This document shows, in pieces, positions 23,720 to 28,159 of a stretch of DNA of 64,000 nt. The notes beneath the pieces are model-generated. The model made no database searches. It had not been told where the DNA came from and saw nothing but the letters and a program-made list of their open reading frames with translations. This DNA comes from Rhizophagus irregularis (taxonomy: Eukaryota > Glomeromycota > Glomeromycetes > Glomerales > Glomeraceae): NCBI RefSeq assembly GCF_026210795.1, contig NC_089438.1, forward strand, positions 620,001 to 684,000, given 5' to 3'. The stretch's first letter is position 1, and each line of letters begins with the position of its first letter. The translations under genes and the position numbers were made by a program.

Positions 23720-26700
23720 TTAACTAATTGAACAAAATGATTCACTTAAGTTAACAAGTGTCATAATTTCCTTATTCTTTTCTAACTCCGGTGGTAAGTC
23801 TCCAGATTCACTTTCTAAATATTTGGCAACGTCATCACGTACCTCTTCCCACTTTTTTAATTTGAAATAATCTAGCTGACATGCTTTATTTAAATGGTTT
23901 AATAATATTTTTCTTGATTTTCTTCTTATTCTTTCATTAGTTACAACCGTTTCAACATCTTCCTCATCAACAATTTCAATATATATCGGAGGATTGTCTA
24001 CATAAATAACATCTCTACATGATTTAACTATTTCGGCAATAATGTCATTCTCATTATGCAATTGTTCCTTATCTGCATCACACCTGTCTTTATCATTAAA
24101 ATAACGAAATTTAGTTCTCACAATAGTAACATAATAAAGAATGTGAGTTTTAAAAATGTCGAAAATGGAACCCTTAAGCAAGTTAAATATTTTTACTTCT
24201 TCCGCTGTGAATCTTCCATCAACCACAAATAAAATTTGGCTTATCCCTTCTGGTATAGAAAAAATTCCATCTAATATTTTATATAAAACTCTCCTTGTAG
24301 ATAGTTTAGTATCCCCAACTCCAATGGTATCAACCACATTAAAACATTTCCCCATCCATTGAAAGTTTTTTTTCTGGAAACTATTAGTGACGCTAAATGA
24401 ATTTCCGCTTTCATCAAACTCATCAGAATCAGTCAGTACATTGCATAATGTGGATTTACCACCACCAGTATGGCCAATTATTATTACATTCTTATTAATT
24501 CTCTTCTTAACAATATTCAAGTTAGGAGGATATTTAAACCTCCAAGACTCAGTGCCATTTTGATGAAATCCTTCCAACAGAGTTTTACAGTTGCTTACGT
24601 CAAGACCAGTTAAATTACTATTAGAACAATCAAGAAATTTCAACTTGGAACAGTTGCTTATATCTAAATTAACTAATTCTTTAATGTTGGAACAATTAAG
24701 TTCTATGATATTCGGGCAAAAATTAACACTTAATATCTTAATTGAAGTATTCGAACAATTGAGTTTAGTAAGATCGCTGACTTCTAACTCAGTTAACTTC
24801 TCAGCTGATGAACAATCAAGCTTGGTTATATTGTAACAATCAATCATAGTTAAACTCGTAAGTTTAGGAGCATTAGACAAGTTAGTAATCTCATTAAGTT
24901 GTCTACAACTACTTAATTCCAAACTAGTTAGCGCATTTGTTGAATAATCAATCGTAGTAAGTTTTGGACAATCAATCACGGATAAATTCTCAAGTTTAGA
25001 TGACTTAAACAAGTTGGAAATATTATTAAGTTTAGTACAACCACATATTTTCAAACTAATTAACTTCTCAGTTGATGAACAATCAAGCTTTGTTATGTTT
25101 GGACAACCAAAAATAGTTAAACTAGTTAACTCATTTGCTGAATAATCAAGCGTAGTAAGTTTTGGACAATCAATCACGAATAAACTATCAAGTTTAGAAG
25201 ACTTGTATAAGTTAGTAATATTATTGAGCTGAAGAAAACTACTTATTTTTAAGCTAGTTGACTTATTAATCAACGAACAATTAAGCGTGGTCAGTTTTGG
25301 ACAATCATTCACTGATAAACTTGTAAGTTTGCTAAGTTCAGACAAGTTGGTAATATTAAGTTGAGGACAATTACTTATTTCCAAATTAATTAATTTAAGA
25401 CTCTTCAAATCAATACTTTCTAAATATTTAAAGCCTTTTAGTTCTAAATAACTATTAAAATTGAAGCGTTTGTTACCAATAATATCTATAAATTTTCCTT
25501 TTGAATATGTTTCATCAAACCATCGTTGGTCTTTTTGTTGCGATTTTTCATTCTAAAATATAAGAGTTGTTAAAAAATAGGAAAAAACAACTGAAAGCGT
25601 ACATTATGTCTATTTAAAATTTTAAATGTATTGCTTACTTTAAGAATTGAAACAACATCTTGCATATTTGGACGTTTATTTGGTTCATATTTCCAACATT
25701 CTAATAAACAAATCAATAAGATTTAATCTTAGCATTAATTAAACAATAATTAAATAAATAGAATTATTTATTACCTGTATATAATTTACTATATTTGGCA
25801 GGTGTTCCTTCAATAATTTCTTCTCTTCTTCCCTTTACTATTGATACGGCTAATCCTATGTCATAATTATCATTTCTATATGGTTGAAATCCACTTGAAA
25901 TTTGCCACATTAGAACACCAACGCTATATACATCAGACTTTTTATTTAATTTATAATTTTGCTGGCCTTTTAACCTTTTTTGATCAATGTAAGGTAACGA
26001 ACCAAATATTTTTAGATTGCTTGATGCAACAATATTTCTTGATAATCCAAAATCTGCCAGTTTTAACTTTTTCTGGTGTACAAATACATTGCTAGCATGC
26101 TATTTTAATTAAATGAGAAAAGTTTAATACTAATCAGTTAAAATCAATAAAATAAGAAAATTTTAAATTATTACCAAATCACGATGAATAATTTCACATT
26201 CATGTATACACGCTACCGCACTTGCCAGTTGCAATGCAAACTGGTATTTATCATCCCATCCAAGTTTATCAAAATTACGCTGTAAATAAGTATTTAGTGT
26301 ATCACTATCAGCATATTTCAAAACCAATGCATATTCTTGATTTATATCTAAATATGTATTAAACAAAAGTTAACTCCATTAAAAAAAATCTCAATTAATA
26401 ATATATACAATACATATAAAAGACATACTATTTTTTTCTATTTTTGTGATTCCATGAAATCGTAAAATATTTTCATGAAAATCCACTCTTTTTTGTAATT
26501 CTATCTGTAAAAGAATTAAATTAATAAAAATTAAAAATAAAAACATAAAATTATTATAAATTCAATACTTCATTAACAATTTCTTTTAGAGTTGTCTTAT
26601 CATTGAAACATTTTAATGCAAAAACTTGATCAGTATTTTTCCAAACAGCATAATCGACGCTCCCAAATGAACCTTTTCCTATATTTCGTATTATTTTAAA

Positions 26701-28159
26701 TTCTGAATATTTATAATATGTAATAGATTCTTCGGCAATTGAATTTTCTAACCAATCTGTATAGATATTTTTTTCCAATTTGGGCTTATCTGCTATATTA
26801 GAATAATATATTATCAGTTTTCGTTAAAATTCATTGCTTAAATTAGATCAAATTATTTTATACCTGCATTTGAAATTTCATATACTTGTTCAATATCGGG
26901 ACTCGATTTTGGTTCGCCATCCTGATAAAATTTTCTTAATAAATTCAGATTTGGGTGATCAGAAGGAATATCTAAGTCGTCATTATCATCGACATCAGTA
27001 TTAGGTATAGTATCATCGACATCAATATCAGGTACAGTATTAGGATGTAGATCAATATTTAGTTTACTTAGTTTACTTAAAATTTCATATACTTTTTCAA
27101 TATTGGGTCTCGATTTTGGCTTACTATTCCAACATTCTTGATAAAGTTGTTGATATTTTGGAGGTGTACCCTTAATTGGCTTTTCTCTTTGATCATCTTT
27201 AATGTGATAGTAAAGTATATCTTGTTTACAGCCAGAAAAAGGAGGACTTCCACTTGAAATTTCCCATAATAGAACACCTAAACTATAAATATCGGACTTT
27301 TCATCTTTTTTATATATGACATTCTTAAAACATTGTGGTTCACAATATGCAAATACCCCCATTTCGTTAGCTATCGAATTAGTCTTAACTTCTGACAACT
27401 TTTTAGATAATCCAAAGTCTGCAATTAATAATTTTCCATTATTCACTAATATATTTTTTGAGTGCTATAAAATAATTGACAGTATTCATTAGTTATCATC
27501 AAAGACAAAATCACAAACAAAATACCATAAATCTATAAAATCAATGCTCCTTTACCAAGTCTCTATGGATTATTTCTTTGGAATGTAAAAATTTCAATCC
27601 GCTAGTAATATCTAATGCCATTTGAATTTTATTATTCCATGTCAAGGAAGTAAATTTTTTTTCCAAGTATTCTTTTAAATTTCCTTCATTAGCATATTCC
27701 AATACCAAAATATAATTCTCAATATCTATTAATTTAAAATAATAATAGTTAGATCGAATATTGTATTAAGAAAAAATGAACATAAAATACCTTTTGTTAT
27801 TCCCAGAATATGTATGATGTTTTGGTGATCAACTTCGCGAAGAAGGTTTAACTGATAATAAAGGTAAAACAAAATCATTTATTTACATATATACTGAATG
27901 TATCAAACTATTATTTGTACAACATAAAAAGAGTACCTACCTCCTTGACAAACTCATCATTAACATCATTAAATTCCTCTTCTGAATTATTACTGATAAG
28001 AATTTTTAGTGCGACTACTTTATTAGCCAAATTTGCTTTACTCACTTTACCGAAACGTCCTTTACCAATTTCGATGATTTGGCTAAATTTATAATATTCA
28101 AAATAACAGATATTCCCATTCTTTATCTTTTCTTCAATCCATTCTTTTACCGAAGTCAT
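23720..28159 (-). CDS. Tandem TKL kinase - LRR - AIG1/GIMAP-type GTPase protein
   Basis: Ten minus-strand exons: 28159-27941, 27851-27791, 27725-27556, 27464-26864, 26792-26569, 26504-26429, 26347-26175, 26099-25775, 25700-25639, 25552-23720. GT-AG introns of 62-94 nt agree in phase and give 1247 aa. Kinase 1: GKGRFGKV (32-39), VALK Lys52, HRDL (147-150), DFG (166-168). Kinase 2: GKGSFGSV (389-396), FALK Lys411, HRDL (505-508), DFG (524-526). Both keep all catalytic residues and look like Tyr-kinase-like family members. Residues about 686-965 are LRRs of the [10 protein letters not shown] type. Then a P-loop GTPase: GHTGGGKST (997-1005), DTIGVGD (1045-1051) and the AIG1-specific [11 protein letters not shown]; the TKxD motif is weak (RTKF). 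Kinase 2 has no ATG of its own (its first frame starts TTG) and the LRR exon opens without one, so one protein is the simplest reading. A role as an LRR-gated sensor/switch is inference. Separate gene models remain possible. Confidence 0.8.

Follow-up and report, generated by a model that had tools for sequence, protein, structure and literature searches.

The gene at positions 28159-23720 (minus strand) of a 64,000-nucleotide window of the Rhizophagus irregularis genome (positions 620001-684000 of contig C10; genome of 146.7 Mb in 32 contigs) very probably codes for a single protein in which two protein kinase domains (K1 and K2) are followed by leucine-rich repeats (LRRs) and an AIG1-type GTPase domain, joined at the predicted junctions. 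Judged by comparative evidence from the same genome, the gene is real, its architecture is recurrent and it is a member of a reshuffling family.

Ten exons with GT-AG splice sites give a joined frame of 1,247 codons plus stop with consistent phases, which reproduces the original prediction across both the K1/K2 and the K2/LRR gap. A spliced aligner given the predicted protein returned the same exons, a result that is not independent of the prediction. The paralogs referred to below come from 38 fetched loci of the same genome (L numbers), whose arrangements were obtained by tblastn and spliced alignment and whose module orders were assigned by homology. K1 is encoded by exon 1 (27941..28159, N-lobe with the ATG start), exon 2 (27791..27851), exon 3 (27556..27725, up to HRDL) and exon 4 (26864..27464), which carries the C-lobe, an acidic linker and a second copy of a kinase-tail motif ([15 protein letters not shown]); similar tail copies precede K2 in L008, L014 and L015. 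The intron after exon 1 has phase 0, as in the other 22 loci with a complete K1, and the three K1 introns (phases 0, 1, 0) are common to 23 of the 24 K1-type loci, the K1 of L008 being cut by the fetched end. K2 extends over exon 5 (26569..26792, N-lobe), exon 6 (26429..26504), exon 7 (26175..26347, up to HRDL), exon 8 (25775..26099, C-lobe) and exon 9 (25639..25700, C-terminus). Exon 10 (23720..25552) contains the LRR region (24563..25393, limits approximate), the core of the AIG1 GTPase domain (24011..24490), the C-terminal part and the stop. Exons 2 to 10 are supported by the joined frame, together with the K1 intron comparison (exons 2 and 3), the methionine positions (exon 5), the K2 exon search (exon 8) and Pfam (exon 10).

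Methionine occurs in the joined protein only at residues 1, 129, 185, 572, 629, 873, 1037 and 1234, leaving residues 186-571 and 630-872 without any. K2 (about residues 381-637) has no methionine ahead of its C-lobe and exon 10 (residues 638-1247) has none ahead of residue 873. Thus neither K2 nor the LRR block has an ATG from which it could start on its own. The statement that the K2 frame begins with TTG holds in the sense that exon 5 has no ATG, and in that sense alone, whereas the ATG said to lie in frame in the K1/K2 intron directly before a stop was misread: it stands at 26834, outside the K2 frame, and reads MNFNEN before the stop.

The methionine positions speak against two or three separate genes, in which a stop near the beginning of intron 4 would end K1, while K2 and the LRR-AIG1 part would start independently. 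We regard such an organization as quite improbable, since the spaces measure just 71 and 86 nucleotides and are alignable with those of paralogs, with length differences that are not all divisible by three and flanks that are open in frame. Retention of intron 4 would nevertheless add GIK and a stop, so a K1-only product is possible, and LRR-AIG1 frames that have their own in-frame upstream ATG and show no kinase match within the DNA fetched are found in L005, L007 and L019 (for L007, just 266 nucleotides upstream of the frame were fetched). An out-of-frame ATG overlapping the start of exon 10 also fits separate genes. It would come into frame with one extra A, yet a base-call error at this place is unlikely because the ATG of L006 is likewise out of frame.

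Of the two joins that had seemed doubtful, the one between K1 and K2 appears the firmer. Intron 4 (26793..26863; 71 nucleotides, phase 1, CAG/GTATAA...ATATAG) and its flanks are alignable in the target gene, L013, L008 and L015, with lengths of 71, 65, 65 and 67 nucleotides, and the donor CAG/GTAYAAAATAA, phase 1 and the open flanks are common to all four. The best intron at this place in L014 has 86 nucleotides (GAG/GTATAT, phase 1, score 17.5), and other candidates exist there. The acceptor of exon 5 is of the NAGNAG type (TAGCAG), so that the exon starts at 26792 or 26789, the second choice giving a protein of 1,246 amino acids. In three paralogs the acceptor corresponds to 26789, and exon 5 may therefore begin there; of the proposed junction 26864/26792, the predicted intron and join stand while the acceptor perhaps lies three nucleotides further. 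Intron 9 between K2 and the LRRs (25553..25638; 86 nucleotides, phase 0, AAA/GTAAGC...TTTTAG) can be aligned, with indels, to the stretch that directly precedes the LRR exon in L006, both having a GTAAG donor and a TTTAG acceptor.

With splice-site weights taken from the K1 introns of other loci, intron 4 scored 8.7 and intron 9 scored 10.2, compared with 5.9-10.8 for the four K2-internal introns of the target and a median of 10.2 for those of seven paralogs (n=29, one a spurious 46-nucleotide gap). The three K1 introns of the target scored 16.6-22.6. By score, the two junction introns thus fall among the K2 introns and below those of K1. In dinucleotide-shuffled spacers, a frame-compatible intron scoring at least as high as the best observed one arose in 6 of 1000 cases for the K1/K2 space and in 12 of 1000 for the K2/LRR space. 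The evidence from the paralogs weighs more than this shuffle test.

A Pfam search of the joined protein, as had been suggested, supports two TKL-type kinases, LRRs and an AIG1 GTPase; the kinases and AIG1 are clear and the LRR models weak. PF07714 reached 341.2 bits and PF00069 303.3 bits over the whole protein, each in two stretches corresponding to K1 and K2. With a PF07714 domain that has Lys, HRD and DFG, the target qualifies as a TKL/TK-like kinase, and both domains keep the glycine loop, the VALK/FALK lysine, the Asp and Asn of the HRD segment and DFG. In five of the eight K2 rows HCD replaces HRD, which the target has retained; our search patterns missed the glycine loop in 4 of 23 K1 rows and the lysine in two of these 23 and in one of the eight K2 rows.

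Among the LRR models, LRR_EndoS scored 29.7 bits (cut-off 27.9) with no single stretch passing, and LRR_4 stayed at 22.8 bits, under its cut-off of 27. A clearer LRR sign is the best solved-structure match, Internalin-J (E 5.1e-19), and the region contains 10 matches to an LRR search pattern, 9 of them with Cys at the ninth position. Tandem DNA repeats of 198 base pairs (80% matches) and 132 base pairs (73% matches) sit inside the LRR exon (window 24836-25304), a sign that the LRR block may have expanded rather recently. The GTPase matched AIG1 (PF04548) with 60.2 bits at residues 992-1151 (cut-off 27), the domain core giving 63.2 bits. Its P-loop ([17 protein letters not shown]), G3 and GRFT box align to GIMAP7 (query 24-140), and its nearest solved structures are GIMAP7 (E 5.9e-12) and GIMAP5.

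AIG1 gave 85 matches in the whole genome at E 0.001, which are pieces and not genes. Thirteen of them lie in C10:1-180000, near the contig end, where AIG1, LRR and kinase genes form a cluster. The order of the target, K1-K2-LRR-AIG1, recurs in L013, and variants of it were found in L014 (K1-K2-LRR; no GTPase was found in the fetched locus by tblastn and spliced alignment) and L008 (K1-AIG1-K2-LRR-AIG1). Hence the joined order is not absent from relatives, as far as paralogs are concerned, an absence which the original prediction had named as evidence against itself. Further arrangements are K1-AIG1-LRR-AIG1 (L009, L011, L022), K1-AIG1-AIG1 (L010, L023), K1 followed by three AIG1 domains in a row (L020, L021) and AIG1-LRR-AIG1 (L006). 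In L021 the C-lobe of K1 and an AIG1-like GTPase share a single open frame of 442 amino acids (kinase 68.1 bits; MMR_HSR1 25.2, cut-off 21.9; AIG1 24.1, cut-off 27), so this fusion needs no splicing. In the other loci the K1-AIG1 step was judged by splice enumeration, which found no compatible intron in L011 and best scores of 4.6 (L008), 4.3 (L009), 6.0 (L020), 8.5 (L023), 10.9 (L010) and 13.8 (L022); these putative fusions are less certain than the K1/K2 join of the target.

Thirteen further K1 loci (L027-L039) have another kinase downstream in five cases (L028, L030, L031, L037, L038). Two of the thirteen reach the MLKL_N cut-off of 27 (L032, 27.8; L034, 27.0), and Pfam found no MLKL_N match in L033. 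The stretch 1396-4599 (plus strand) of L032 contains K1, the MLKL_N match, a weak MACPF-like match (19.6, cut-off 27.5) and LRRs, possibly a protein of the cell-death type if this is one gene. An Hsp70-like domain read by eye after K1 in L027 was dropped, Pfam having found nothing in two frames.

In the K2 exon search, 150 of 2,960 candidates were scored; among these the best 8, all of which were fetched, stand apart with at least 165 bits, the ninth having 147. Four of the eight are the K1-K2 loci (target, L013, L014, L008), and in the other four (L015-L018) the upstream neighbours differ. Another kinase stands upstream of K2 in L016 and L017. In L015, K2, whose first exon has no ATG, is preceded by frames (2100-4100, plus strand) that by eye look like an E2 ubiquitin-conjugating enzyme. 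In L018, the N-lobe of a K2-type kinase shares its frame with a Zn(2)-Cys(6) cluster match (2345-2920, minus strand; 21.6 bits against a cut-off of 21).

A kinase tree separated the 23 K1 rows from the 8 K2 rows at 100/100. This rules out that K1 and K2 arose by internal duplication of one kinase; they are distinct lineages, and the gene was thus assembled from modules. The nearest relatives differ by module: the K1 of the target groups with L009/L023 (95/82), its K2 with L015 (95/66, branch not starred) and its GTPase with L005, L006 and L007 (93/94, not starred), followed by L013 (99/97). This points to assembly by module exchange. The kinase-tail motif and linker are repeated ahead of K2 and in L013 also ahead of the LRR block, and in L011 (3192-1297, minus strand) the beginning of K2 runs straight into its tail, which looks like an excision of the kinase. 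Recombination at the repeated kinase-tail linkers may well have reshuffled the modules. As to a bacterial source of the LRR-AIG1 part, 20 stretches of genomic contigs retrieved with two peptide patterns included none encoding a relative; such a scan would detect only close relatives. Viral contigs gave one weak match, with 28% identity over the LRR part.

A mosaic history of this kind would also be expected of a chimeric or decaying locus with little or no transcription, left as a by-product of segmental duplication. Incomplete relatives fit this as well (L014, where no GTPase was found, and L011, whose K2 seems to be absent although its flanks are there), and so does the report that kinase genes of R. 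irregularis occur in many copies and have a higher mean methylation than core genes (PMC8647823). We nevertheless consider decay unlikely: 1,247 codons are free of stops, all nine introns have usable sites, and the catalytic residues are intact. Moreover, pairwise Nei-Gojobori ratios of nonsynonymous to synonymous substitution (dN/dS) were below one in all whole-domain pairs of the target that were shown, with 0.31-0.49 for K1 (8 of 22 pairs shown), 0.37-0.47 for K2 (7 pairs), 0.49-0.65 for LRR plus GTPase (8 pairs) and 0.40-0.63 for the GTPase (8 pairs); some of these values are rough, since the paralog coding sequences concerned contained long spurious introns. Among the target, L005, L006 and L007, the LRR ratio exceeded that of the GTPase in five of six pairs (overall ranges 0.47-0.74 versus 0.24-0.50), the pair of target and L007 being opposite (0.47 versus 0.50).

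Several observations weigh against one intact protein that acts as a sensor. The K2/LRR join is backed by one intron in one paralog, L006, which upstream of its LRR exon has a GTPase instead of a K2 match. Splice enumeration between this GTPase and the LRR exon gave three candidates, a 188-nucleotide intron scoring 5.4 and two with negative scores, and the alignable intron was not among them, although a 14-nucleotide exon in between would fit by eye. The best intron leading into the LRR block of L013 has a low score of 5.6; the GTPase match at this locus contains two stop codons at its C-terminus, and its switch region is altered. L008, L014, L011 and L022 have an ATG in the open stretch ahead of the LRR block, where some of these copies might start. 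Neither kinase of the target has a regular APE motif (EPQ; IDQK). The G4 position of the GTPase reads VRTKF in all nine alignment rows, where the usual Asp is not evident and which the GIMAP7 alignment does not reach. Single-sequence AlphaFold modelling of exon 10 was poor (mean predicted local distance difference test score, pLDDT, 51), the LRR part alone being usable (about 54-87); Foldseek placed LRR proteins at the top of its matches to the model, with low TM-scores and a single E-value under 0.001. The predicted ligand face of the LRRs is not faster than the remainder (dN/dS 0.48-0.76 versus 0.47-0.73, six pairs), so that diversifying selection on this face was not seen in these pairs, and the C-terminal parts of target and L006 gave a dN/dS of 1.54 on 87 codons.

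Compared with known systems, the GTPase shares PF04548, P-loop, G3 and GRFT box with AIG1/GIMAP proteins (GIMAP7, GIMAP5, GIMAP4), to which the target adds kinases and LRRs; to our knowledge, GIMAPs have neither. Plant tandem kinase-pseudokinases (WTK1/Yr15, RPG1) likewise have two kinase domains in one predicted chain, and their 'fusion' group combines kinases of different lineages as the target does (PMC6170490). Neither target kinase appears to be a pseudokinase, however, as both keep Lys, HRD Asp and DFG, and the target further differs by its LRRs, its GTPase and its fungal host. The proposed likeness to LRRK/ROCO proteins is right insofar as kinase, LRR and GTPase stand in one chain. Neither Roc nor COR was among the Pfam matches of the joined protein at E 0.01, AIG1 takes the place of Roc, and the N-terminal kinases differ from the domain order of LRRK2. 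With NLRs the target shares an effector-like N-terminus, a nucleotide-binding domain and LRRs, but its switch is a TRAFAC-type GTPase, and neither NACHT nor NB-ARC was among the same matches. Internalin-J, which has a cysteine ladder, resembles the target in its LRRs and is a bacterial protein without kinase or GTPase partners. AIG1-Hint proteins are found in Glomeromycotina, the fungal group of the target, where the AIG1 family is expanded; their partner is Hint, and the accessible part of the source mentions neither kinase nor LRR with them (PMC8778642). Kinase and AIG1 expansions are known from R. irregularis or Glomeromycotina (PMC4219462, PMC8647823, PMC8778642), and a transfer of kinase and LRR genes to Mollicutes-related endobacteria of these fungi has been reported (PMC10507103). 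One Aig1 gene (GBC10892.1) was reported to be upregulated when different isolates are co-cultured (PMC7490403). Among the titles, abstracts and text passages covered by our literature search, which included few subscription papers, none described a protein combining kinase, LRR and AIG1 in Glomeromycotina. The architecture had been put forward as one without known parallel. It is no singleton: it belongs to a combinatorial family in the genome.

Judged from its domains, the protein could be, as had been suggested, an intracellular sensor with nucleoside triphosphate-dependent signaling. The interpretation that we slightly favor overall is a multidomain intracellular LRR sensor, assembled from modules, that would use a septin-like GTPase as its switch and kinases as its output. 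In the predicted protein, which runs from K1 through a linker to K2, the cysteine-rich LRRs, the AIG1/GIMAP-like GTPase and the C-terminal part, the LRR solenoid would bind a ligand or partner. GIMAP GTPases are thought to be controlled by dimerization (PMC8201404), and given the likeness to GIMAP7 and GIMAP5 we propose a GTPase-driven clustering step: binding would alter the nucleotide state of the AIG1 domain and its self-association, which would depend on GTP as has been proposed for GIMAPs. The kinases would then be brought together by the clustering and activated, or one would phosphorylate the other, giving a signal. If the gene does code for a single protein, this mechanism is somewhat better than an even bet. 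The protein would act like an NLR or a receptor kinase without belonging to these families.

Alternatively, the single protein could be a scaffold in symbiosis or development and not a sensor of non-self or danger, its LRRs binding a fixed partner. This is possible though clearly less probable; it agrees with the lack of fast evolution at the predicted LRR face and with the proposal that high-copy genes of R. irregularis serve in perceiving the environment and interacting with it (PMC8647823), whereas module turnover and clustering near the contig end fit a birth-and-death repertoire better. Fungal NLRs carry ANK, TPR or WD40 instead of LRRs, or predominantly so (PMC9815663, PMC10197012). A more tentative extension of the sensor interpretation is that this fungus has a receptor repertoire of its own, parallel to NLRs, with a septin-like AIG1 GTPase in place of NACHT/NB-ARC and LRRs in place of ANK/TPR/WD40. 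Its output would come from interchangeable N-terminal kinases or, in related K1 loci, from MLKL-type four-helix bundles, and the set would have been reshuffled through the repeated kinase-tail linkers. As a whole, this proposal is doubtful.

In the neighbourhood of the gene, a C-terminal dimerization domain of a hAT transposase (window 21702-22049, plus strand; 67.3 bits, cut-off 21.4) lies about 1.7 kb past the 3' end. Just upstream, at window 28814-29488, open frames on both strands encode repeated related peptides, perhaps from a repeat element.

Arbuscular mycorrhizal fungi have many kinase genes of unknown purpose. With its parts in other orders in relatives of the same genome, the target looks like a member of a home-made set of internal sensors, a function that we infer from the sequence. 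A family of kinases and LRR-GTPases in several arrangements is a candidate for the sensing of partners, strangers or endobacteria. It offers a defined gene set for tests of expression, strain comparison and biochemistry, and a worked case of how genes may be built by module exchange.

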